From the IMG/VR virus record IMGVR_UViG_3300046529_000243, positions 1 through 21,749 of that record: a stretch of 21,749 nucleotides of DNA, one strand, 5' to 3'. The translations under genes were made by a program, and so were the position numbers. Origin of the DNA: a virus. The notes under the pieces are model-generated. The model did no database searches. It was not told the origin of the DNA and worked only from the letters and a program-made list of their open reading frames with translations. This document shows positions 116 to 16,189 of the stretch, in pieces (within the stretch, counting starts at the first letter, position 1; the number at the start of each line of letters is the position of its first letter).

Positions 116-443
116 AGGCAATAGAGGTAACCCCAATCCCCTTCCTCCGCCCATAAGCGGCCAATGGAAGCCCGGCCAATCGGGCAACCCAGCAGGCGGG
201 CGCAAGCACAAAGCCTTCAGGCTGGCTCTAGAGCGCAATCTAGCGATACTGGGTGGTGGGGATCCCGATATCACCATGGACAAGATAGCGGTCGCTCATC
301 TCACCCGGTGCACGGAGGGCGACATGGGGGCCATCAAGGAATTGGCCGACAGGTTGGACGGCAAGGTACCGCAATCCATTGGCGGTACCGACGAGCTTCC
401 GGGCATTAAGGGATTTGCGTGGATCGACACGAAGACGGAATAG
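108..443 (+). CDS. terS: Terminase small subunit, DUF5681-like
   Basis: This is probably the DNA-recognition subunit of the packaging motor, which binds viral DNA and loads the large subunit. The N-terminus has the W-K-P-G-Q-S-G-N-P motif (about residues 20-28) followed by a basic G-G-R-K-H-K stretch, as in DUF5681 proteins. The C-terminal half contains the G-D-M-G-A-I-K-E-L-A-D-R-L-D-G-K pattern common in phage small terminases. At 111 residues it is short. The next gene, overlapping by 25 bases, is the large terminase, which supports the role. No other ATG in this frame lies upstream before a stop at 54-56; the ribosome site is weak. Family assignment is from pattern recognition. Confidence 0.8.
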   Translation: MSKGNRGNPNPLPPPISGQWKPGQSGNPAGGRKHKAFRLALERNLAILGGGDPDITMDKIAVAHLTRCTEGDMGAIKELADRLDGKVPQSIGGTDELPGIKGFAWIDTKTE

Positions 444-1756
444 TTCGCATCAATTATGAACCGCGATCCTATTTCCTTCCGTTTCATGCTCGTACAGAAC
501 GATTCGCTTGTGTTATTGCTCACCGACGAGCAGGCAAAACGGTTGCGTGCATTCATGATCTGCAACGGGCTGCCATCCGGAATACGCTTACGCGCCCTCG
601 ATACGCTTACATCGCACCGACATACAGCCAAGCCAAGACAGCAGCCTTTGACTACTTGATGGACGCTGCGGCGCCGATCATGCCCTATGGGGCGACAGTC
701 AACAAATCAGAACTGAGGGCCGACTACCCGAATGGGTCACAAATCAGACTGTTCGGGGCTGATAATCACGACTCCTTGCGCGGTGTGCGACTCGATGGCG
801 TTGTGTTTGATGAGTTCGCTGACGTTAATCCTCGAACATGGGATGCGGTCATCCGACCGGCTCTCAGTGACCGCCAGGGGGGAGCAGTATTTATTGGAAC
901 ACCTCGAGGCCATGATGGATTCTACCGACTGTGGTGTGACGCTCAGTCTAACCCAGAATGGTTTACTGCTTGCCTCAAAGCCTCAGAGTACGTCCCCGAC
1001 AACGCCAAGTACAGCTTAGAGGAATGCCGCGCTAAGGGGTTGTTGCATCCCATCGAGCTTGAGAACGCTCGCAAGTCGATGCCGACCGAACTCTATGAAC
1101 AGGAATATGAGTGTGACTTTGAGGCCGCCATCGTTGGGGCCTATTACGGCACCTACATGGCGGACGCAGCCAAGGACGGACGTATTACTCAAGTCCCCTA
1201 CGATCCGGCTTTCCAGGTCTATACCGCATGGGACATTGGCGGGGACAGAGATGCAACGGCCATCTGGTTCTGGCAGTCCATCGGTCGACAAATCTGCCTC
1301 ATTGACTATTATGAAGCTGTGGGGTCGGATTCTGGGCCGCACGTCAAAGTGCTACTCGGTAAACCGTATAGCTACGCGCAACATTTTATACCACATGACG
1401 CAGGCCCTAACCGTATTGGCATTGATCAGTCTTATTCTGATTTTCTCCGCAACCATGGTCTTCGGGATATTACTGTCCTGCCTGTTGGCATACGCGAACA
1501 CGGCATTAACGCGGCTCGGCTGCTTTTGCCGCGATGTGTATTTGATGCTCAAAACTGCGCTGACGGCATCGAGTCGCTGAAGATGTACCGGGCGAAGTAC
1601 GATGAGAAGCTCAAGACCCTTAGCGCAAGTCCTGTCCACGATTGGGCTTCTCATGGTGCCGACGCTTTTCGTTATTTGGCTGTTGCTCTTGATAGGCATG
1701 TGAGTTCGCCGGACTTTAATCGCAAGCTGGTGTATCCTAACCTTGGTGTTGCATAA
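419..1756 (+). CDS. terL: Terminase large subunit (ATPase and nuclease)
   Basis: This is the motor that translocates DNA into the procapsid through the portal and cuts it at the end of packaging. The ATPase domain shows a Walker A motif, A-H-R-R-A-G-K-T (residues 34-41), a Walker B strand ending V-V-F-D-E-F (128-133, D131/E132) and a coupling-type segment, F-I-G-T-P-R-G (158-164). The C-terminal RNase H-like nuclease has A-W-D-I-G-G-D (270-276), L-I-D-Y-Y (294-298) and H-D-W-A-S-H-G-A-D-A (407-416), giving candidate metal ligands D272, D296, D408 and D415. The length of 445 is normal for compact phage terminases. The start is GTG at 419, inside the small-subunit gene, so translation is probably coupled. 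The product is complete. Confidence 0.95.
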   Translation: MDRHEDGIVRINYEPRSYFLPFHARTERFACVIAHRRAGKTVACIHDLQRAAIRNTLTRPRYAYIAPTYSQAKTAAFDYLMDAAAPIMPYGATVNKSELRADYPNGSQIRLFGADNHDSLRGVRLDGVVFDEFADVNPRTWDAVIRPALSDRQGGAVFIGTPRGHDGFYRLWCDAQSNPEWFTACLKASEYVPDNAKYSLEECRAKGLLHPIELENARKSMPTELYEQEYECDFEAAIVGAYYGTYMADAAKDGRITQVPYDPAFQVYTAWDIGGDRDATAIWFWQSIGRQICLIDYYEAVGSDSGPHVKVLLGKPYSYAQHFIPHDAGPNRIGIDQSYSDFLRNHGLRDITVLPVGIREHGINAARLLLPRCVFDAQNCADGIESLKMYRAKYDEKLKTLSASPVHDWASHGADAFRYLAVALDRHVSSPDFNRKLVYPNLGVA

Positions 1757-2516: not shown

Positions 2517-3143
2517 ATGCCGCGACCCATTCTCCTCATCCGCCATGGCTGCACGGCCTTAAACAAAAACGACAGCTCGGCCGATAAGATTAGAGGATGG
2601 AAAGACGTTCCGCTGAATGAGATAGGACGTAAAGAGGCCGATAAGCTCGGTGAGCGCCTCAAAGGCAATGGCCCCGATTATCTGGTGTCCTCCGATCTCA
2701 TTCGGGCTAAGGAAACCGCGGTTATTATCTCCAAGGTCTCAGGCATTCCCTTGGAACTTGTCACCAAGTCCTTCAGACCGTGGGATGTAGGAAAATATGC
2801 CGGCACCTCGAGCCAGGAGAGCGTCCCCATTCTGGCCGAAATGGCCGAGAAGCAACCCGACAAGAGGGTTCCGGGCGGGGAGTCGTTCAATACATTCAAG
2901 AGCCGCCTGTTTGGCGGGCTTTACAATCTCTTACGCGCCAATAACGAAATACCGGGGATTGTGACGCATCACAGGGTCGAGCGCCTATTGAAGGCATGGC
3001 AAGCGGCTGGCTACCCTAAAAATGGTGATATCGACCCGCGGGTGTTTGCCCAGAAGGGCGAGGCCCCGGGTCATCTCGAGGTCTTTGGCGTTCCGGTCGA
3101 GCGCATACCGCATGATGCCTTTTCTGATTATGGCTGGGCCTAA
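2517..3143 (+). CDS. Histidine phosphatase (phosphoglycerate mutase-like)
   Basis: The family transfers phosphate through a phospho-histidine intermediate, and members act on sugars, nucleotides or proteins. The signature is clear: L-I-R-H-G-C-T at residues 7-13 with nucleophile H10, S-S-D-L-I-R-A-K-E-T-A at 58-68 containing the second arginine (R63), G-G-E-S at 120-123, and the second catalytic histidine in G-I-V-T-H-H (H151). At 208 residues it is a normal single-domain member with all core residues, so it is probably active. It follows the preceding stop directly and overlaps the next gene as TAATG. A metabolic or regulatory enzyme in a head operon is unusual; the substrate cannot be read from the sequence. 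A role in nucleotide or phosphoprotein turnover is only inference. Confidence 0.9.
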   Translation: MPRPILLIRHGCTALNKNDSSADKIRGWKDVPLNEIGRKEADKLGERLKGNGPDYLVSSDLIRAKETAVIISKVSGIPLELVTKSFRPWDVGKYAGTSSQESVPILAEMAEKQPDKRVPGGESFNTFKSRLFGGLYNLLRANNEIPGIVTHHRVERLLKAWQAAGYPKNGDIDPRVFAQKGEAPGHLEVFGVPVERIPHDAFSDYGWA

Positions 3144-3310
3144 TGCTGGGCCTTAAGACCAAGGCCAGCAAGGACGAGGCGTCCTATTGTAAGGGCTCGC
3201 CAGGGCGGCATTGCTCGATCTGCGTCATGTTTATTAAACCCGATTCTTGTAGCGCCGTTGCTGGCAAGATATCACCGTCCGCAGTTTGCGATTATTTCAG
3301 GCGTAAATGA
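3143..3310 (+). CDS. HiPIP-like four-cysteine mini-protein, 55 aa
   Basis: This small gene runs from ATG 3143 (TAATG overlap with the phosphatase) to TGA 3308-3310 (ATGA overlap with the next gene). The product has C16 plus a cluster C24-x2-C27-x8-C36-x12-C49, with H-C-S-I-C-V-M-F-I, then C-S-A-V-A-G-K-I-S-P, and an end of V-C-D-Y-F. High-potential iron-sulfur proteins bind one 4Fe-4S cube with C-x2-C, a third Cys, a V-x-G-x-I-x-P-like turn and a final Cys followed by aromatics, and the pattern here matches in order though the second spacer is shorter. No signal peptide is seen, unlike exported HiPIPs. A zinc-binding knuckle is the main alternative. Confidence 0.85.
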   Translation: MLGLKTKASKDEASYCKGSPGRHCSICVMFIKPDSCSAVAGKISPSAVCDYFRRK

Positions 3311-3786
3311 TAGACGTATTCATTCTCCTTGGCGGTCTGTTCGGCGGTCAGGGGGAACAGCTCGTCAATGTCGGCATGGGGGCGCTGGCTTTAGAACTCG
3401 AGCGCTTACCGGGGGTGAAAGTCACTCAATACCCTTGGCGCGATTACGAGCGTGTTGCTGTTGACCACTCTCACGGCAAGCTCGTGGTGATTGGCTATAG
3501 CGGAGGAGGCTCACGAGCCACTTGGCTGGCGGACGGGGAGCTGATTATCATTGATTTAATGGTTTTATATGACCCGAGTCCGAGCTGGCAGATGAAGCCG
3601 GTCAAGGACAACGTTAAGCGGGCGATTTGCTATCATAATACAAATCCGATGTTTGGCAGGCTGGGCGGCGGCCTCTTGCGCGGCCCTCATGTTGAAGTCG
3701 TTGATATTGCCGAGTTTCATTTAGACGTTGAGAAAGACCTCGCCTTACATGCGCACACCATCGCCGCGGTGAAAGAGCTTTTATAA
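3307..3786 (+). CDS. Alpha/beta-hydrolase-like protein
   Basis: This 159-residue protein begins with a hydrophobic strand (D-V-F-I-L-L-G-G-L-F-G-G) resembling the first strand and oxyanion loop of small alpha/beta hydrolases. K-L-V-V-I-G-Y-S-G-G-G at 58-68 is a nucleophile elbow (G-x-S-x-G) with S65 as nucleophile. L-Y-D-P-S (87-91) may supply the acid D89, and H138, H148 or H150 could be the catalytic histidine. It is shorter than typical hydrolases, so a minimal fold is implied. It overlaps the HiPIP-like gene by four bases and stops immediately before the portal gene. Esterase or lipase activity on the cell envelope or a particle component is possible; the substrate is unknown. Confidence 0.75.
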   Translation: MIDVFILLGGLFGGQGEQLVNVGMGALALELERLPGVKVTQYPWRDYERVAVDHSHGKLVVIGYSGGGSRATWLADGELIIIDLMVLYDPSPSWQMKPVKDNVKRAICYHNTNPMFGRLGGGLLRGPHVEVVDIAEFHLDVEKDLALHAHTIAAVKELL

Positions 3787-6414
3787 ATGGCATCACCCAC
3801 TTACGCTGCAGAGCCTCGTCCTAGCCGACGAATGAGCCGCAGCGAACTGAAGACATTGCTGGATTCCGAGAAGATAAGCGCCCTCGCCGCCATCCGGGCA
3901 TCCGTCCTAAGCTCGCAGCGCGACGATGCGCTGATGTACTACAACAACGACATGAGCAAGGACATGCCGGCGGCGGACGGCCATTCAAGTGCCGTCAGTT
4001 CGGACGTATCGGACACCATTGAAGGCTTGATGCCTTCGCTGATGGAAATCTTTACCGGCTCCGAGGAAGTTGTTAAATTCAATCCGCAGGGGCCGGAGGA
4101 CGTTCAAGCCGCTGAGCAGGAAACCGACTATATCAATCATGTTCTAATGAATCAGAACCCCGGCTTTCTGATTCTGTATAGCTTCATCAAAGACGCGCTC
4201 TTATCCAAGGTTGGCGTGGTCAAGGTTTGGTGGGAGGAACGTGAAGAGGAAGAGCAGGAAACCTACTACAATCTCACCGATGACCAGTTTGCCTTATTGG
4301 CGGCCGATCAGGATGTTGAGATCGTTGCCCATTCAGCCCACCAAGGGGAATCCGAGGGGGATGAACTCAGAGATAGTTCGCTCGGGGATACAGAGGATGC
4401 GCCTGGTCAATTGCCTCAGACTCGTGCGGCGATTGGCCAAGGAGAATCGAACAATGGCTCCTGGCAACCGCGAGGCGGTCAAACCATAAACCGTAGCGCC
4501 CCGCCAGGGGCTTTGCCGGCGCCTTCAGGACCTCCGGGAATAGGCGCGCCGGCCGCAGGCATGGCTGGCCCGGCACCCACCCTGCACGATGTCAAGGTCA
4601 AGCGCAGCAAGAAGTATGCCGAAGCCAAAGTGCTTGGTGTCCCGCCGGAAGAGTTCGGCATTGAGAAAACTGCCCGCTCCATTCGGAGTTGCAATTATTG
4701 CTTTCATCGCATAACACAGATTACCCAAGGTGAGCTTATTCGGCAGGGCTATGACCGCGATATCGTTGAATCGCTCCCCACCTATCTCTCCATCACGAAC
4801 CCGGAAGAGATCAACCGAGACACAGTTGCGGAACATCTTGACGTTGGAGAAGAGCATAACCCGGCTTCTAGACGAATTGCTATCATCGAACACTACGTCC
4901 GAATGGACTATGAAGGAACGGGAGTTGCTAAACTCTATAAGGTTACTACGGGTGACGAACAGGGGGTCTTACTAACCAAGAACGGCGGCGAACTCGATAT
5001 GGAGGAGTTCGACCAGATCCCATTTGCCGCCATGACGCCGGTGATTATTACCCACCGGTTCTTTGGTCGCTCCTTGGCCGATTTGGTCATGGAGATTCAA
5101 CGTATTAAAACGGCCCTATTGCGGGCCTATCTCGATAACAAGTATCTTGCCAACAATCCACGCACTGAGGTTGCCGAGAGCCACGCCTCGGTCAACACTT
5201 TAGATGACCTATTAATCAGCCGCCAGGGCGGAATTGTACGTACTAAGCAGCCTGGCGGCCTTAACGTTATTGAAGTCCCAGACATCGGGCAGAACATCTT
5301 TCCGGCCTTGGAATATTTCGACCAGGTGCGGGAAGTCCGTACCGGTGTCACCCGCCAAGGGCAGGGCATTGACGCCGATGCGTTACAGAACCAGACGGCG
5401 ACCGCTGTCAATCAGATGTACTCGGCCACTCAGGCCCGCATGAAGCTGATTGCGCGTATCTTTGCCGAGACAGGTATTAAAGACCTTTCCCTGTTGCTGC
5501 ACGGCATTGTGCGAAAGCACGGCCAGCAGGCTCAGACCGTCAGATTGCGCAATCAGTGGGTTCAAGTTGACCCGCGGGAGTGGAAAAAGCGCAACGATAT
5601 GACGGTGGAAGTGGGGCTTGGCACCGGCGGCAAGGCCGAGCAGATGCAGATGATCAACCTGATCATCGCCATGCAAGAGAAGGCCTTGATGGGCGGCCTG
5701 ACGAATATCGTCACCCCCACGAATCTCTACAATTCGGCCAAGGTGCTAACACGCATTAGCGGTCATAAGGACACAGACGCCTTCTTTACCGACCCGAGCA
5801 CGCAGCCGCCTCCGCAAGCGCAGCCCGATCCCAAACTACAAATCGAGATGATCAAGGCGCAGAGTGCGGCGCAGTTACAGCAGCAAAAGCAGCAGACCGA
5901 AGCGGTCCACGAGGCCGCCAAACTACAGGCCGACGCCGCTCTTGAGCAGCAGAAGTTCGAGCATCAAAAAGAACTCGACATGCTTGAGATGCATATGAAG
6001 CGCGAAGAGCACGGCCACAAGATGCAGCTTGCTACCCATCAAGCCAAGCTTGCCGAAGTCCAGGCTGGAACGCAGATTGCGCTCGCCGGACACCAAGTCG
6101 AACAGGACAAGCACAAGGCCGAGACCGAGAAGGCCAAGGCTTCGCAGCCCAAGGAATCCAGTGGCGGCACAATGGTATTCGCCGGCGACAAGGGCGCCGA
6201 GTCAGTCAGTAAGGGTTTTGGCGGTCTAACCGACAGCCTAGGCGGGGGTATTAAGCAGCTTGGCGACCACATGACCAAGATGCACGAACAAACCATGCAG
6301 GCGCACAAGCAGACGGCTGATGCTATCGGCCACATGCTTAAGCACGCCTCCGCCCCGCGCAAGATTGTTCGCGGCAAGGACGGCAAGATTAGTCATGTGG
6401 AGACTTCTCACTAA
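3787..6414 (+). CDS. Portal protein with linker insert and coiled-coil tail
   Basis: The portal is a dodecameric ring at one capsid vertex through which DNA is packaged and ejected. The N-terminal 180 residues (Y-Y-N-N-D near 51, then S-S-A-V-S-S-D-V-S-D-T-I-E and L-M-P-S-L-M near 81) are typical of podovirus portals. Residues about 183-265 are a Gly/Pro/Ser/Gln-rich low-complexity insert between two parts of the wing domain. The core resumes at H-D-V-K-V-K-R and includes the R-R-I-A-I-I-E-H-Y segment and a Q-N-Q-T-A-T-A-V-N-Q stretch. Residues about 675-790 form a long Gln/Lys/Glu-rich helix, probably a coiled-coil barrel or tail projecting into the capsid. At 875 residues it is longer than many portals, mainly because of these two additions. 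The start is ATG directly after the preceding TAA. Confidence 0.92.
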   Translation: MASPTYAAEPRPSRRMSRSELKTLLDSEKISALAAIRASVLSSQRDDALMYYNNDMSKDMPAADGHSSAVSSDVSDTIEGLMPSLMEIFTGSEEVVKFNPQGPEDVQAAEQETDYINHVLMNQNPGFLILYSFIKDALLSKVGVVKVWWEEREEEEQETYYNLTDDQFALLAADQDVEIVAHSAHQGESEGDELRDSSLGDTEDAPGQLPQTRAAIGQGESNNGSWQPRGGQTINRSAPPGALPAPSGPPGIGAPAAGMAGPAPTLHDVKVKRSKKYAEAKVLGVPPEEFGIEKTARSIRSCNYCFHRITQITQGELIRQGYDRDIVESLPTYLSITNPEEINRDTVAEHLDVGEEHNPASRRIAIIEHYVRMDYEGTGVAKLYKVTTGDEQGVLLTKNGGELDMEEFDQIPFAAMTPVIITHRFFGRSLADLVMEIQRIKTALLRAYLDNKYLANNPRTEVAESHASVNTLDDLLISRQGGIVRTKQPGGLNVIEVPDIGQNIFPALEYFDQVREVRTGVTRQGQGIDADALQNQTATAVNQMYSATQARMKLIARIFAETGIKDLSLLLHGIVRKHGQQAQTVRLRNQWVQVDPREWKKRNDMTVEVGLGTGGKAEQMQMINLIIAMQEKALMGGLTNIVTPTNLYNSAKVLTRISGHKDTDAFFTDPSTQPPPQAQPDPKLQIEMIKAQSAAQLQQQKQQTEAVHEAAKLQADAALEQQKFEHQKELDMLEMHMKREEHGHKMQLATHQAKLAEVQAGTQIALAGHQVEQDKHKAETEKAKASQPKESSGGTMVFAGDKGAESVSKGFGGLTDSLGGGIKQLGDHMTKMHEQTMQAHKQTADAIGHMLKHASAPRKIVRGKDGKISHVETSH

Positions 6415-7811
6415 TGGCGCTGACGGTCACACATGCGCACCACTCGGCCATTGCCGATGACGGTTCGGATGTCGGCTCAAACAATTGGAATGCTGCGCAC
6501 ACTCTGACCGGCAGTGTTGCGGCTTCGGAACTGACCGGCAATATTGACCTTTCTTCCCAGGTTACTGGTAATCTGGCGACAAGCCATTTAAACAGCGCAA
6601 CGAGCGCAAGCTCTTCTACATTTTGGTGCGGGAACGGCGCCTGGATTAATCCCCTTAGCGGGTTTTCTGCAAAGACTCCAGCAGGCAGTGACTTAACTTT
6701 CTATGTTGCGACGACGGGGAACGACTCCAATGTCGGCTCGGTTGGCTCCCCGTTCAAGACTATCCAGTACGCCCTAAACGTTGTTGCGGGCTATGATTGG
6801 ATAGGCAACTTTAGGCCGATAATCAATGTTGTCGCCGGCACCTACGCCGAAAACCTCATCCTGCCGGTCCTGACCAATGCAACAAAGGAAGGTTGGCTGC
6901 TCGGCGATGAAACCACCCCGGCCAATGTCATACTGTCCGGCGCTTCGGGGCCAACCGCCGCGATAAGGGCCGATGGCGGCGTTGAGTGGTTTGTCTCCGG
7001 GTTTGAGTTTCAGGGCTCGACGACCTACGGGATAAGCGTTAATTACGGCAGCATCGTCGATATGGGAGCCATTAATATGAATGGCCCCCCGAACCCGTTT
7101 CACTGCGAGCAAGCGGAACTGGGGCTCAATGTTGGGCCTATCATCGTTAAGCAAGTCAACGGCAACTTCATTACAGGAAAGTACGGTCTATTCCCTTGGG
7201 AAAATTGCTCCATTACCCTGACAACGGGGCCAATGACAAATGCGAACTTTTTCCTGGACCTTGAGGGGGGCAATTGCCAAGTCCAGCTAGAGAACGCCAC
7301 CTACACTAATTTTAGCTCATGGGCGGACGGCGGCGGCAGCAGCATTGTCGCCCTAAATTCCAGCATTGTTAATACGAGGAACGGGCTGATATCGGACGTC
7401 CCGGGAGCAACCGCGGTGCCCGGGAGCAACCTGTTTGCTGACGTTACCTGCTGGATTACGTCGATCAACAGTAATTTTGCTACCAACCTTGGAAGCGCCT
7501 TCGGGTATGTGGACCGGACGGTAGTTACCTCAACGTCCACCAATTATACGCTGGGCTTTGCCAACGCCGGCAACATTATCGAAATGAATAATGCCGGAGC
7601 CAATACGGTTACGGTCCCGTCAAGCGCAACGGTTAACTTTCCGGTTGGCGCAAAGGTGACGGTTGTTCAAGCGGGCGCTGGCGCTACATCGCCCTCGACG
7701 GCCAGCGGCGCGACAATACACGGGGTAGCGGCTTTGGCAGGTCAATGGAAATCGGCCGTTCTTTATAAGCGTGCGGCCGACGAATGGGTTCAGCTCAGTG
7801 GGGCATTCTAA
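6414..7811 (+). CDS. Tail fibre/spike-like protein with beta-helix
   Basis: This is a 465-residue virion-surface protein candidate. The N-terminus (M-A-L-T-V-T-H, then N-N-W-N-A-A-H-T-L-T-G) matches the start of the next gene and is probably the attachment part. Residues 51-77 carry one copy of a T-G-N-L...L-N-S-A-T...F-W-C-G-N-G-A-W repeat. After that, F-Y-V-A-T-T-G-N-D-S-N-V-G and S-P-F-K-T-I-Q-Y-A-L-N resemble the opening of right-handed parallel beta-helix (pectate-lyase-like/DUF1565) domains, and the following 200 residues have rung-like hydrophobic periodicity. The last about 90 residues resemble a common fibre end domain (V-T-V-P-S-S-A-T-V-N-F-P-V-G). It overlaps the portal stop as TAATG. 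A polysaccharide-binding or -cleaving receptor protein is likely, but the enzyme activity is not shown. Confidence 0.75.
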   Translation: MALTVTHAHHSAIADDGSDVGSNNWNAAHTLTGSVAASELTGNIDLSSQVTGNLATSHLNSATSASSSTFWCGNGAWINPLSGFSAKTPAGSDLTFYVATTGNDSNVGSVGSPFKTIQYALNVVAGYDWIGNFRPIINVVAGTYAENLILPVLTNATKEGWLLGDETTPANVILSGASGPTAAIRADGGVEWFVSGFEFQGSTTYGISVNYGSIVDMGAINMNGPPNPFHCEQAELGLNVGPIIVKQVNGNFITGKYGLFPWENCSITLTTGPMTNANFFLDLEGGNCQVQLENATYTNFSSWADGGGSSIVALNSSIVNTRNGLISDVPGATAVPGSNLFADVTCWITSINSNFATNLGSAFGYVDRTVVTSTSTNYTLGFANAGNIIEMNNAGANTVTVPSSATVNFPVGAKVTVVQAGAGATSPSTASGATIHGVAALAGQWKSAVLYKRAADEWVQLSGAF

Positions 7812-9155
7812 GTGGCTTTAACGGTCGCACATAATTTCACCTCAACGACGACTGAAACCACAAACTCCGGCACGTCCGGAGGCTTGGGCATTGTTGGGCC
7901 AAACGAGTGGAATGCTAATCACACTGTCACCGGCTCAATCTCGCTTGCCAGTACTGCCGATGGCATTACCGGCAATCTTCCGGTTGGGAACCTCAACAGC
8001 GGCACGGGCGCCAGCACGACCACCATGTGGCGCGGCGACGGCTCCTGGGCTGCGGTCGATTTGGCGACCGCGAACGTTACCGGCAACCTTGGCGTAAGCC
8101 ACCTGAATAGCGGTACGGCCGCAAGCAATGCCACGTTCTGGCGCGGCGATGGTACATGGGCCGCAGCAGGCGGCAGCGTAGGTGGCACAAGCGGCAGCGT
8201 CCAGTATAGCACTGGCGGCGCGCTTGGTGGCTTCGGCTATTGGGACCAAGCCAACCTCATCCTAAATCTCGGCAGCACCTCGGCTGCGGAGAGCTTGCGG
8301 GTCTATAATTCGATTGATGTTCTAACCGGCCCCACCAACTACGAGCGCGGGGTGTTTGATTGGACGACCACCAGCAACGTCCTGACGATTGGGACGCAGA
8401 AAGGCGGGACGGGGACAGCACGCTCGGTTAAGATTGTAGGGGGCAATGCCGGCACGTTCCTGGAATGCGGCATTGATCGCGGAGACACGTTCACTGTCCA
8501 AAACGGCTCTTTCGGAATTGATATTAATGGAAATACGAACTATAATACGTATTTCTTCTCTGCTGAGGGATGGCGTGTAGTCAGCGGCAACGCCTATTGC
8601 TTCGTTAGTTCGGGAAATGCAACGGGGACAACCGACACCGCTATCAATCGCGTTACCGCTGGGGTACTTGGTGTTGGCACAGCATACAATAACGCCTCTG
8701 GCTGGATTAATTATGGGGGCGAAAAGCGCGTCTCCGCCGATGTCACTTCGACCACAACCGCCAAGGCAAACATTACCGGCTTGAGCTTTACTACACTCGC
8801 GAGCCGCAAATATTCATTCCAGGCCAATTTGATTGTAACCGATGCGGCTGCGGGGGGTATCGCCATCACCCTGAATGCCACGTCCACCACGACCACATAC
8901 ACGCTTATATTTGATGGCTTTGTGGTGGAAGCCACCAATAAGGGCTATGCGCAGGGAACGCTATTGACTGGCGCGAACGATGTCGCGTCATCCGCCACTA
9001 CTGGGACTATCGCACACGTGATTGTGACCGGCACGCTGGAAACTTCCGCCACGGCACCCAGTACCGTTGTCCTTCAATTCTCGCAGAATACGCAGAACGC
9101 CACACAAACCACTGTCAAACAGGGCTCATTTATGTGGGTCCACGATATGCCCTAA
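7812..9155 (+). CDS. Tail fibre-like protein, N-terminally related to the previous gene
   Basis: This 447-residue protein starts with GTG directly after the preceding TAA. It shares M-A-L-T-V-x-H and the W-N-A-x-H-T-x-T-G-S block with the upstream fibre, then diverges. Residues 53-80 and 90-117 are two tandem copies of T-G-N-L-x-V...L-N-S-G-T-x-A-S...W-R-G-D-G-x-W-A, a motif common in phage fibres. The rest is Thr/Ser/Gly-rich beta structure. The C-terminal part (residues about 310-447, from V-S-A-D-V-T-S-T-T) has a jelly-roll-like look. A homotrimeric surface fibre for host attachment is the best guess. The divergent C-terminal part compared with its neighbour suggests a different receptor or a distal fibre segment. 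Confidence 0.75.
   Translation: MALTVAHNFTSTTTETTNSGTSGGLGIVGPNEWNANHTVTGSISLASTADGITGNLPVGNLNSGTGASTTTMWRGDGSWAAVDLATANVTGNLGVSHLNSGTAASNATFWRGDGTWAAAGGSVGGTSGSVQYSTGGALGGFGYWDQANLILNLGSTSAAESLRVYNSIDVLTGPTNYERGVFDWTTTSNVLTIGTQKGGTGTARSVKIVGGNAGTFLECGIDRGDTFTVQNGSFGIDINGNTNYNTYFFSAEGWRVVSGNAYCFVSSGNATGTTDTAINRVTAGVLGVGTAYNNASGWINYGGEKRVSADVTSTTTAKANITGLSFTTLASRKYSFQANLIVTDAAAGGIAITLNATSTTTTYTLIFDGFVVEATNKGYAQGTLLTGANDVASSATTGTIAHVIVTGTLETSATAPSTVVLQFSQNTQNATQTTVKQGSFMWVHDMP
7968..8162 (+). repeat. Two tandem WRGDGxW fibre repeats
   Basis: Copies at 7968-8051 and 8079-8162 encode 28-residue units with the same order of landmarks: T-G-N-L, L-N-S-G-T-x-A-S, and W-R-G-D-G-x-W-A. A third, diverged copy is in the upstream fibre gene at about 6564-6644, where W-R-G-D-G is replaced by W-C-G-N-G. 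Confidence 0.75.
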
Positions 9156-10955: not shown

Positions 10956-12023
10956 TTGTCTGAGAATCTTGATATTGCACAGAATGCTACTGAAGTTGTA
11001 CCGACAAGCGACACGACCCCCCTTACACCCCGCCAGGCTGCGGAATCACTGAGCCAATATCGCTATAAACGCGATGCCGGTGAAGCCCGCGCTGCGGAGG
11101 AAATGCCACCCTCGCAGGTCAATGACGCCGCGAGAGAGATTGACGCCGCCCCTCCAGAAGAGGCTACCGGCGAGCTACCGACCGAAGCAACCGACCAGGC
11201 GGAAGCGCCTCCACTCGACTTGCCGAGGTCTTGGGCGAAAGACAAAGCGGAAGCATGGGCAAGGCTCGACCGTGACACCCAAGAATACCTCTTGGATCAT
11301 GACAGCAAAGCCTCTGCGGAAGTACGTCGGACGCAAAACGAATCCGCTGAACGCGCCAAGGCTCTTGAAGCCGAACGCGCACAGTTGGAACAGGCTAGGA
11401 AGCAATATGAAGAAGCCGCCTTGGTGGCCCTTCAGGAGCTTCAAGGACAGCAGCTGGGCGAATTCGCCGATATCAGAACGCATGCCGATGTCGAGCGATT
11501 AGCCAGGGAAGATTGGCCGCGTTATGCCTTGTGGGACGCCAAGCAAAAGCAAATTGCAGGGCGGCAGCAAGAATTAAAGGCCGCCCAGGAGCGTCAGCAG
11601 CAGGACTATCAGGCCCAATACGCTAAATTCGTCAAGGACAACACGGACAAATTCATTGAATCCGTGCCCGAGCTGAAGAACAGCGAGAAGGCCACCAAGT
11701 TCGCGACTGACGCCGTTAATCTCTATCGGGATCTAGGATATTCCGAAGACGAGATAACACAATTGCAGCAAGGCAAGGCATCAATTTCTCCTCATGATCG
11801 TCGGCAATTGCAGATGACCAGGGAGGCGCTTCTCTATCGCCAAGCCAAGGCTGCAATTCCAAAAGCTGTGGCCAAGCCCATTCCACAAGTACAGCGCCCC
11901 GGTGTTGCTGCGCCGCGCAATGCGGACAAGAGCAGCCGGGAGGAAGCTTTAAGCAAACGTTTAGACGCAACAGGCAACTGGAAAGACGCCGCGGAGCTAC
12001 TCATAGCCCGGCGCTCCAGATAA
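10956..12023 (+). CDS. Capsid scaffolding protein
   Basis: The scaffold drives correct assembly of capsid protein around the portal and leaves before or during packaging. The N-terminal 85 residues are acidic, Pro/Ala/Glu-rich and probably disordered. Then comes D-L-P-R-S-W-A-K-D-K-A-E-A-W (about 88-101) and Q-E-Y-L-L-D-H (about 108-114), typical of phage scaffold proteins, followed by a long coiled coil rich in Ala, Glu and Gln (about 125-165 and 195-230). The C-terminal end is basic (K-A-I-P-K-A-V-A-K-P), as expected for the capsid-binding end. The start is TTG at 10956 behind AGGTGA. It lies just before the major capsid gene, as usual for scaffold genes. Confidence 0.88.
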   Translation: MSENLDIAQNATEVVPTSDTTPLTPRQAAESLSQYRYKRDAGEARAAEEMPPSQVNDAAREIDAAPPEEATGELPTEATDQAEAPPLDLPRSWAKDKAEAWARLDRDTQEYLLDHDSKASAEVRRTQNESAERAKALEAERAQLEQARKQYEEAALVALQELQGQQLGEFADIRTHADVERLAREDWPRYALWDAKQKQIAGRQQELKAAQERQQQDYQAQYAKFVKDNTDKFIESVPELKNSEKATKFATDAVNLYRDLGYSEDEITQLQQGKASISPHDRRQLQMTREALLYRQAKAAIPKAVAKPIPQVQRPGVAAPRNADKSSREEALSKRLDATGNWKDAAELLIARRSR

Positions 12024-12033
12024 AGGATAAAAC

Positions 12034-13011
12034 ATGTCTCTCCCCAGCAATGCCCTGGCTTCGTATGAAGCCATCGGCAACCGCGAAGACCTCGCGGACG
12101 TTATCTACAGAATTGACCCGACCGAGACTCCGTTCCTGTCGGGCGCCGAGAAGGCCAAAGCTACCGCCGTCAAGCACGAATGGCAGACCCAGGCCCTCGC
12201 CACCGCACAGACCACCAACGCAGTGCTCGAAGGCGACGACGCCGCGGCTGATGCCACGACCGTCACTGCTCGCCTGAGCAACATTGCGCAAATCTCGCGT
12301 AAGGTGCCCATGGTGAGCGGCACCCAGCAGGCTGTGGATCATGCCGGCCGCGGGAACGAAATGTCGTATCAGGAGATGTTGAAAGGGCTTGAACTCAAGC
12401 GCGACATGGAGGGCTCGCTGATTGCCTCGACGTGGGGCAGCACGACCGGCTCTGATACTGCTGTCCGGCATCTGGGTTCGGTCCTGTCCTGGCTCGGCGT
12501 CGGCGCCAAAGGCAATACCAGCGTGTCGACCGGCGCCACCACTGGTGTCGACCCGACAGGCTCGGACGGCTCGGGCGTTCGCACCAACGGCACCCAGCGT
12601 GCTTTCACCGAAGCTCAGTTGAAGAACGTGCTTCAGGCGGTGTGGGTGAACGGCGGCAAGCCCGACCTCATCATGACTGGCAGCTTCAATAAGCAGGTCT
12701 TCTCGACCTTCACTGGCCGCAGCTCGCCCATCGAGCAGGCCGCCAGCAAGAAGATCGTGGCGGCAGTTGATGCCTACGAGTCGGACTTCGGCACCCTGAA
12801 AGTGGTCCCGAACCGCTTCTGTCGGCAGCGTGACGTGTTCACGTTCCAGATGGACCTGTGGGGAGTGGCCTTCGTCAACGGTCGCCGCATGGTGTCGGTG
12901 CCACTGTCTCAGACGGGTGACTCGGTTCGCCGCATGATCCTGTCGGAGTACACCCTGGAGGCTCGCAACGAAAAGGGCTCCGGCCTCGTCACCGACTTGA
13001 CCACCAGCTAA
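12034..13011 (+). CDS. Major capsid protein, SU10-like (DUF5309 type)
   Basis: This 325-residue HK97-fold shell protein is preceded by a strong ribosome site, AAAGGA (12022-12027). The N-terminus has D-P-T-E-T-P-F-L-S-G (about 28-37), then H-E-W-Q-T and V-L-E-G-D-D, followed by I-S-R-K-V-P-M-V-S-G-T; this order is characteristic of the SU10 major capsid family. The C-terminal half shows P-D-L-I-M-T-G-S-F-N-K-Q (about 210-221), F-G-T-L-K-V-V-P-N-R and L-S-E-Y-T-L-E-A-R-N-E-K, as in relatives. No signs of truncation. Third codon positions are nearly all C or G, unlike the mixed use of neighbours, consistent with very high expression. Confidence 0.93.
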   Translation: MSLPSNALASYEAIGNREDLADVIYRIDPTETPFLSGAEKAKATAVKHEWQTQALATAQTTNAVLEGDDAAADATTVTARLSNIAQISRKVPMVSGTQQAVDHAGRGNEMSYQEMLKGLELKRDMEGSLIASTWGSTTGSDTAVRHLGSVLSWLGVGAKGNTSVSTGATTGVDPTGSDGSGVRTNGTQRAFTEAQLKNVLQAVWVNGGKPDLIMTGSFNKQVFSTFTGRSSPIEQAASKKIVAAVDAYESDFGTLKVVPNRFCRQRDVFTFQMDLWGVAFVNGRRMVSVPLSQTGDSVRRMILSEYTLEARNEKGSGLVTDLTTS

Positions 13012-14883: not shown

Positions 14884-15195
14884 ATGTCGTCCTTCTTCGT
14901 GAAGCAGCCGGCTTCCCGGCTTATCAAGAACCAGCTGCTTCAATACACAGGAAGCGGGACACTGCTCACCACCCCATTCCTGTCCGAGACCTATCAAGTC
15001 CGGGTGCTCTCTCAGGTGAATGGTTGGTGCTCGATTGACAATACCACCGGCATGATTTCATCGTCAACCGGTGGCGTTCTTCTCGCGGCCAACACCGCGG
15101 CGGGGGATTACTTCACCGTCACCCCCGGGCAGGCATTCGCATTCAGCTCGACCACGACTGCCAGCGGGACAATCAGCGTGACGGAGATGTCCTGA
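14884..15195 (+). CDS. Beta-rich small protein, tandem copy A (103 aa)
   Basis: This 103-residue protein and the next are clear tandem paralogs. Shared landmarks are F-F-x-K at the start, Y-T-G-S-G-T, V-R-V-L-S-Q-V, L-x-A-A-N-T-A-x-G-D-Y-F and a C-terminal S-G-T-x-S-V-T-E-M. The composition is beta-rich and it probably forms a small sandwich. AGGAG (14869-14873) in the previous gene is a good ribosome site ten bases upstream. Function unknown; a head-surface or fibre-base component is a guess from position and style. Confidence 0.75.
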   Translation: MSSFFVKQPASRLIKNQLLQYTGSGTLLTTPFLSETYQVRVLSQVNGWCSIDNTTGMISSSTGGVLLAANTAAGDYFTVTPGQAFAFSSTTTASGTISVTEMS

Positions 15196-15497
15196 TGACT
15201 GCTTTCTTTCAAAAGGCGTCTTCGTCGCGGATTGGCTTCAATACGATATTGAATTATACCGGCTCCGGCACGGTCTCAACCACCAATGTCCATGCCGGTT
15301 GCTATCACGTCCGCGTTCTGTCCCAGGTTCCCGGGTTTCTGGCCATTGATGTGTCTGCCTCCAGTAGTGGCTCAGGCACACTAATTGCGGCCAATACCGC
15401 AGGCGGAGATTACTTTTCCTGCATTCCGGGAAACATCGTTACCTTTAGCTCAACACTCGGTACTAGCGGTACCTTAAGTGTCACGGAGATGCTATAA
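15195..15497 (+). CDS. Beta-rich small protein, tandem copy B (100 aa)
   Basis: Copy B of the pair begins at the TGATG overlap with copy A (stop TGA 15193-15195) and stops at TAATG with the next gene. It keeps the landmarks of copy A but differs in loops (for example it replaces W-C-S-I-D with F-L-A-I-D) and is about 40% identical by eye. Gene duplication followed by divergence is the simplest account. Co-assembly as a hetero-oligomer would be a reasonable idea, but nothing in the sequence shows it. Confidence 0.75.
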   Translation: MTAFFQKASSSRIGFNTILNYTGSGTVSTTNVHAGCYHVRVLSQVPGFLAIDVSASSSGSGTLIAANTAGGDYFSCIPGNIVTFSSTLGTSGTLSVTEML

Positions 15498-15943
15498 TGG
15501 CCTCAACAGTAGATTCAAAGACGGCGCTCACGGCCATGGTTTCCGTGTTGACCGCCTACACTTCCGCGGTGGGCGTTTCCACTGCGACCTTCAATACCTC
15601 GCTGGCGTCCCAGCAGACTGCCGACACCTCACTGTCGTCGGCGGAAAGCAAAATCTTGACCCAGATCAGCAGCGCCATTGGCTCTGCGCAACCGTCCAGC
15701 AGCATTCACAACAGTGCTTTTGGCACCGGGGTGGACTTTCGCACCCTCTACACCGCCATGGCCTCGGCCATCACAGCCTTTTCTTCGGCTAGCTCGGTTA
15801 CAACCGGCAATTTCGCCACGCAGCTGTCGTCAATGATAACCATTGATACAGGTCTCACCAGCGTGGAAAGCGGCCTTGTTACCTTGCTCACCAGCGCAGT
15901 CGGCAATGCCACGCCCGCCGCTTCTACTCATAGTCAGGTTTGA
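15497..15943 (+). CDS. Duplicated helical-module protein, 148 aa
   Basis: The 148 residues contain two copies of a roughly 62-residue module: residues about 10-71 and 83-145. Shared pattern is [A/S]-x-[T/V]-A-[Y/F]-S/T-S-A, then S-L-A-S-Q-Q-T-A-D-T-S-L-S-S-A-E-S in copy 1 and Q-L-S-S-M-I-T-I-D-T-G-L-T-S-V-E-S in copy 2, then helix and a close of S-S-x-I-H or A-A-S-T-H. A third copy is the next gene. Mostly helix, hydrophobic with few charges, low Cys. No family recognised. TAATG overlap with copy B of the previous pair. Confidence 0.75.
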   Translation: MASTVDSKTALTAMVSVLTAYTSAVGVSTATFNTSLASQQTADTSLSSAESKILTQISSAIGSAQPSSSIHNSAFGTGVDFRTLYTAMASAITAFSSASSVTTGNFATQLSSMITIDTGLTSVESGLVTLLTSAVGNATPAASTHSQV

Positions 15944-16177
15944 AAAATGGCCTCCAACATTGACGGAAGACAACTCCTCACCTGGTTTACGGATTCCATG
16001 GTGGCGCTCTGCCTCACCCAGGCGTCCGGCACCACGACTACTTGCACCCAGATGGTAACCTCCATCGCTAGCCAGGCGTCAGCGGATACCGGCCTGTCCA
16101 ATCAGGAAAAGGGTATCCTGACCGCCATCTCGACTGCGTTCTCCAAGGCGGCCACGCAGCCCAGCTCGGGCATTCAC
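15524..16177 (+). repeat. Three copies of one helical module across two genes
   Basis: Copies at about 15524-15709, 15743-15931 and 15971-16177. Common residues are the T-D-T-x-L-S/T-x-x-E-x-x-I/L core and a closing S-x-I/T-H. The first two sit in one protein, the third is a separate 80-residue protein beginning with the same M-A-S-x-x-D. Confidence 0.7.
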
Positions 16178-16189
16178 GCAGTTCTATGA
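15947..16189 (+). CDS. Single-module helical protein, 80 aa
   Basis: This protein is one stand-alone copy of the module found twice in the previous gene: V-T-S-I-A-S-Q-A-S-A-D-T-G-L-S-N-Q-E-K (about 37-55), then I-L-T-A-I-S-T-A-F-S-K, ending S-S-G-I-H-A-V-L. It begins M-A-S-N-I-D, like the partner gene's M-A-S-T-V-D. It has two Cys absent from the partner (C22, C33). The stop overlaps the next ATG as ATGA. Confidence 0.75.
   Translation: MASNIDGRQLLTWFTDSMVALCLTQASGTTTTCTQMVTSIASQASADTGLSNQEKGILTAISTAFSKAATQPSSGIHAVL

Follow-up and report, generated by a model that had tools for sequence, protein, structure and literature searches.

The window analysed here, a 21,749-nucleotide (nt) stretch of viral DNA (IMG/VR record IMGVR_UViG_3300046529_000243, positions 1 to 21,749), is head-module DNA, as matches to PHROGs families show for the terminase large subunit (TerL), portal, head scaffold and major capsid protein (Table 1). 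This bears out the phage head operon setting given in the original prediction, which had picked out a 55-residue protein as a HiPIP-like iron-sulfur candidate. Its gene lies between those of TerL and the portal protein; the presence of the protein in virions remains an inference. The gene is tightly packed, with overlaps of start and stop codons at both of its ends, and the histidine phosphatase gene upstream of it is intact. Scanning the window for Rfam families, tRNAs and promoters yielded nothing of use. Relatives of the window TerL are rare in viral contigs: just four were found, and a HiPIP accompanies only the already known close one.

Table 1 Features of the window discussed in the text, with predicted cluster ligands
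Feature	Position	Strand	Basis or remark
Terminase large subunit	419..1756	+	phrog_2
Histidine phosphatase, PF00300 branch 1	2517..3143	+	Conserved RHG and second His; its stop and the HiPIP start overlap (TAATG)
Phage-type HiPIP, predicted [4Fe-4S] protein, 55 aa	3143..3310	+	Standalone, without signal peptide
Tyr15	3185..3187	+	Matches conserved HiPIP tyrosine near cluster; invariant in 59-sequence phage alignment
Cys24, predicted cluster ligand 1 (PioC Cys22)	3212..3214	+	Alignment
Cys27, predicted cluster ligand 2 (PioC Cys25)	3221..3223	+	Alignment
Cys36, predicted cluster ligand 3 (PioC Cys34)	3248..3250	+	Alignment
Cys49, predicted cluster ligand 4 (PioC Cys47)	3287..3289	+	Equivalent position in 95/96 distinct phage domains
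159-aa protein with GYSGGG (GxSxG) motif	3307..3786	+	Start overlaps HiPIP stop (ATGA)
Portal protein	3787..6414	+	phrog_1216, E = 1.8e-164
Head scaffolding protein	10956..12023	+	phrog_3927
Major head protein	12034..13011	+	phrog_1328

The translated protein, MLGLKTKASKDEASYCKGSPGRHCSICVMFIKPDSCSAVAGKISPSAVCDYFRRK, contains the cysteine pattern C24-x2-C27-x8-C36-x12-C49, the turn V39-A-G41-K-I43-S-P45 and the end C49-D-Y-F, all three as originally predicted. The predicted absence of an export signal also held, with 14 residues before Tyr15 and no hydrophobic segment. A fifth cysteine, C16, which the original prediction leaves unmentioned, is an arginine in the closest relative (locus L001) and is not kept by the family in our alignment. 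The L001 protein is 89% identical to the window protein; the two genes differ by 14 synonymous and 6 non-synonymous changes (dN/dS of about 0.09), showing that the open reading frame (ORF) is under purifying selection.

HiPIPs are known from photosynthetic and iron-oxidising bacteria, where they carry electrons in the periplasm. PioC, by published account the smallest HiPIP known, binds its 4Fe-4S cluster through Cys22, Cys25, Cys34 and Cys47 (PMC7462912). The x2/x8/x12 spacing of the window protein is exactly that of PioC, which resolves the concern, raised with the original prediction, that one spacer was short. Tyr15 aligns with the tyrosine of PioC, 3h31 and 1isu. Its equivalent was not included in the pattern with which phage copies were sought.

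Profile comparisons place the window protein among HiPIPs. A hidden Markov model (HMM) of 57 other phage copies, from which the window copy and its near twin were left out, scores it at 72.8 bits, compared with maxima of 9.3 bits in 2000 full shuffles and 23.4 bits in 2000 shuffles with the cysteines fixed. An HMM of exported bacterial HiPIPs and PioC gives 41.7 bits (maxima of 12.2 and 21.2 bits in the corresponding controls). It is the sole HiPIP-like segment among the 503 six-frame segments of the window, the others reaching at most 5.3 bits. Curated collections are less responsive to the single sequence. Pfam gave no family and PHROGs no match, and the NCBIfam model Feoxidase_Iro (HiPIP iron oxidase, NF041615) matched with E = 1e-8 at 35.3 bits, against a strict cut-off of 100. 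Two phage relatives, however, pass the 22-bit cut-off of the Pfam HiPIP family PF01355, one from the Synechococcus phage S-SRM01 (23.7 bits) and one from locus L079 (25.0 bits). In searches of the PDB, the single sequence finds PioC by phmmer at E = 0.007, and the phage family profile finds PioC (2.9e-15), the R. marinus HiPIP (2e-6), and then 1isu and 1hlq.

The AlphaFold2 model, computed with 59 phage sequences, has a pLDDT of 93.3 and a pTM of 0.74, and shows a HiPIP fold. All 18 Foldseek matches in the PDB are HiPIPs, with TMq up to 0.75 (0.73 for PioC); the best E-value is just 0.007, a modest figure of the kind expected at a length of 55 residues. VIA-align gives Z scores of 7.4 for 1isu and 7.0 for PioC. 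The assignment to family and fold is thus well supported by sequence profile, fold and ligand spacing. We regard the HiPIP fold, which is predicted by a model, as very likely. A 4Fe-4S cluster is likely too, although it is inferred, there being no metal data for any phage copy. The HiPIP-like reading in the original prediction is supported to this extent, with iron content an inference.

One objection is that a small protein with four cysteines may be a zinc-binding domain that merely resembles a HiPIP, particularly as the identity of the metal is inferred. Zinc ribbons and knuckles, however, have two C-x2-C (or C/H) knuckles, whereas the window protein has a single C-x2-C pair together with PioC-identical spacing and the conserved HiPIP tyrosine. 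Profile and fold searches returned HiPIPs, the only other matches being short ones to cytochrome c (E = 0.08–0.4), and no zinc family appeared in Pfam, NCBIfam or the PDB. The outcome that would have refuted the original prediction, no HiPIP signal together with a zinc-family match, did not occur, and we consider this alternative very unlikely.

The window protein is nevertheless a phage-type variant and not a typical HiPIP, in that it lacks an export signal, falls below curated cut-offs on its own and has no glycine before the last cysteine. Ala47 occupies the position, two residues ahead of the last ligand, at which HiPIPs commonly have Gly. That glycine is widely conserved in HiPIPs, is not a ligand and is usual rather than defining; it is present in 76 of the 96 phage domains. 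PioC, which with the Iro-type HiPIPs (NF041615) has size, spacing, conserved tyrosine and predicted fold in common with the window protein (R. palustris TIE-1, PDB 6xyv/7a58), has the glycine. PioC also differs in being a periplasmic electron carrier (PMC7462912), whereas the window copy lies in a head operon and is without an export signal.

The original prediction treated the gene as a single oddity. Our survey corrects this: the window ORF is one of many copies of a domain that is widespread in phages. Scanning DNA for the core signature C-x2-C-x-M-[FWLC]-x2-P-x2-C-x2-V-x-G-x-I gave matches in at least 120 viral stretches and in 8 stretches from 84,980 bacterial and archaeal species genomes. 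Two of the eight cellular matches look spurious, five resemble exported HiPIPs, and the eighth is a long fusion of the phage type. The fixed methionine of the signature favours the phage type, so the enrichment concerns that type and not all HiPIPs. Features outside the signature confirm the hits: of 96 distinct phage domains, 95 have the last cysteine at the same distance and 95 have a tyrosine ahead of the first cysteine. Phage copies have no export signals, whereas the bacterial hits have long signal sequences. The domains form 61 clusters, 33 of them inside larger proteins and 28 standalone.

In a few members the cluster site itself departs from the pattern. The copy at L024:6344-6511 has a serine where other copies have the fourth ligand cysteine. 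A comparable substitution, C77S, is present in the HiPIP structure 1js2, whose title describes a serine-ligated [4Fe-4S] cluster. In HiPIP-like domains at L164:1338-1508 and L166:3737-3907, inserted residues separate the first two cysteines (C-x11-C, not C-x2-C), and cluster binding by these domains is uncertain.

Comparing the window protein with the phage collection by tblastn gave no match; the same search with its relatives found only S-SRM01 there, and nothing in plasmids. The S-SRM01 protein (QPX48026) is a standalone member of the same family (33–36% identity), like the window copy. It is annotated 'hypothetical protein' in GenBank, but its UniProt entry (A0A879R316) already names a HiPIP profile domain, and recognition of a HiPIP domain in a phage is consequently not new. 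In the literature that we could search, which left most subscription papers and bioRxiv preprints outside its coverage, we found no report of phage HiPIPs.

The histidine phosphatase is a recurrent partner. Its gene precedes that of the HiPIP in the window and in two relatives. In L045, whose TerL is only 60% identical to that of the window, the genes follow in the order TerL, phosphatase, HiPIP, portal, and the TAATG overlap recurs. Phosphatase and HiPIP form one protein in L073, L154, L156, L157, L159 and L160; the HiPIP comes first in L162, and in L192 both are joined in one protein with ChaB and an XkdF protease. A HiPIP lies within about 3 kb at 18 of the 77 viral loci where a phosphatase relative is encoded, compared with none of 80 control loci chosen for an unrelated methylase (P = 9e-7). 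The linkage persists when kin of the seed sequences are removed (11/70, P = 1.5e-4) and when one locus is counted per arrangement (6/65, P = 0.007). The association is real, although not universal.

The relatives are also tied to virion heads by covalent fusion. The HiPIP domain is C-terminal to portal domains in six loci (L017, L027, L076, L092, L104 and L135), lies within a P22-type portal protein in L100, precedes MuF in L041, L061 and L120, and is fused to MuF in L165 as well. In L106 it sits between portal and MuF, accompanied by NUDIX. Fusions to XkdF-type proteases occur in L136 and L192, the former also including the anti-CBASS protein Acb1, and fusions to the pyrophosphatase InPase in L005 and L132. 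Portals and MuF are parts of the virion, and a HiPIP joined to them should therefore be one too, although this is an inference. Several of these fusions have domains in common with the polyvalent and MuF-fused effectors described by Iyer et al. 2017 (PMC5512222), namely InPase, ParB-like, ART, MuF and portal domains; the main text of that paper makes no mention of HiPIP, iron or iron-sulfur domains. Separately, we note that the protein at L136:5947-7998, which holds HiPIP, NUDIX, Acb1 and the XkdF-type protease in a single chain, is prophage-like and comes from a Rhodocyclaceae MAG contig.

A second link to heads comes from standalone copies in T4-like phages, which start with MKSFQEFLFE, MKSYQEFIAE and similar sequences, almost identical to the MKTYQEFIAE start of T4 IPII and IPIII. 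The T4 internal proteins are diverse injected defence proteins that have only their targeting sequence in common (PMC3012670). A single regular expression for such a capsid-targeting-like N-terminus matched 29 of 64 distinct N-proximal phage copies and 25 of the 909 other ORFs in the loci of the T4-like group. These 29 copies are related sequences and do not represent 29 independent events. The gp21-type protease (PF03420) was present in all six sampled records longer than 160 kb. Beyond the N-terminal peptide we saw no similarity between phage HiPIPs and IPI, IPII or IPIII, which are likewise small, injected head proteins.

The window HiPIP itself has neither a capsid-targeting peptide or gp21 site nor a fusion, being a single-domain protein, in which it differs from the copy of T4-like S-SRM01 with its T4-type capsid-targeting N-terminus. 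Its packaging therefore rests on its position and its relatives. Without virion data, we lean towards the inference that it is head-associated in its own phage.

An alternative is that the protein is cytosolic and never packaged, for example serving to soak up oxidants or nitric oxide or to counter host defence, and came to lie among head genes by modular shuffling. In its favour are the absence of a targeting peptide from the standalone window copy and the variability of cargo-like genes in the TerL–portal slot between close relatives, such as the methylase of L001 and the GxSxG protein of the window. The neighbours of other standalone copies are also mixed, including terminase, portal and head–tail adaptor as well as integrase, kinase and primase, and a tally of these neighbours alone does not prove a head role. 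Against it stand the repeated covalent fusions to portal, MuF and head protease and the T4-type targeting peptides of relatives, and we consider this alternative unlikely.

The original prediction also held that an iron-sulfur protein would be unexpected in a virion gene cluster, which needs correction: in siphophages, the tail-tip hub of the lambda gpL type has an iron-sulfur cluster that is essential for tail assembly (PMC10276861). The hub resembles the proposed phage HiPIP in placing such a cluster in a virion protein; it differs in belonging to the tail and not the head, in that the cluster is in an ion-binding domain of the hub protein, and in not being found by the HiPIP fold search. 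It also serves as precedent for the main rival to our reading, in which the cluster is structural, no electrons are transferred, and the HiPIP fold gives heads a compact module for docking or packaging. This rival remains possible. The domain flanks portal, MuF and protease domains or lies between them, and many of its architectures have no redox partner. However, standalone T4-like copies already have a capsid-targeting peptide and would not need a docking role, the window copy is a free 55-residue protein, and the tyrosine and all four cysteines are kept as in redox HiPIPs.

Our preferred reading is that a phage-borne branch of HiPIPs without a Tat export signal is used as virion cargo. Cys24, Cys27, Cys36 and Cys49 would hold one [4Fe-4S] cluster packed against Tyr15 in a PioC-sized fold, the fold being predicted and the metal inferred. 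In the window, the protein would probably be co-translated with the upstream histidine phosphatase. In the head, the cargo would travel as a free protein, with a T4-type capsid-targeting peptide ahead of it, or as a fusion to portal, MuF or head-protease domains; as inferred from these architectures, it would enter the host with the DNA. There this small protein may transfer single electrons or serve as a redox switch beside takeover enzymes that cleave nucleotides or phosphoesters (histidine phosphatase, NUDIX, InPase and Acb1). The least certain step, also an inference, is that the cluster would be in the oxidised (3+) state while the virion is outside the cell and become reduced (2+) on entry into the cytosol.

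Taken as a whole, this reading of a head-carried, phage-type HiPIP delivered with host-takeover enzymes could as readily be wrong as right, given that the metal, the packaging of the window copy, its delivery and a redox function are all inferred. Delivery combined with a redox role is at best evenly balanced and perhaps slightly disfavoured. One argument against electron-carrier roles is that a HiPIP in a reducing cytosol is expected to stay reduced, and we saw no dedicated redox partner gene adjoining the window HiPIP. A bolder version, in which many kinds of phage inject head-loaded HiPIP-type [4Fe-4S] proteins with histidine phosphatase, NUDIX, pyrophosphatase or anti-CBASS enzymes as the redox component of takeover or counter-defence, is one that we would rather doubt than accept.

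A different redox role, as an auxiliary metabolic gene feeding electrons to host photosynthesis or respiration, as in purple bacteria, would fit the known biochemistry of HiPIPs (PMC7462912) and the occurrence of a copy in a Synechococcus phage. That role, however, is periplasmic and needs Tat export, and it is the bacterial hits that have signal sequences and not the phage copies, which in addition are often fused to head proteins. We judge it very unlikely. If the cargo reading is instead true, a HiPIP branch free of export signals across tailed phages puts a redox-active iron-sulfur cluster inside virions, and connects virion iron with injected effectors and with the histidine phosphatases of phages, which are poorly understood. 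S-SRM01 is a cultured phage with a copy, which makes the claim directly testable.

Other genes of the window merit brief mention. The protein at 3307-3786 has a serine-hydrolase-like motif and matched neither Pfam nor PHROGs. Locus L006 encodes a relative (48%) at a distance of about 3 kb from a HiPIP; in L001 the corresponding slot is occupied by a DNA methylase, and no such relative adjoins the HiPIP. In the structural region, the adjoining small paralogues at 14884-15195 and 15195-15497 are 54% identical and form a tandem duplication. A second adjoining paralogous pair follows at 15497-15943 and 15947-16189, the first of which has two repeats of a unit found once in the second. Finally, the large adjoining proteins at 6414-7811 and 7812-9155 have a common N-terminal segment (40% over 89 columns) and diverge downstream, a pattern resembling that of tail-fibre proteins with a common attachment end.
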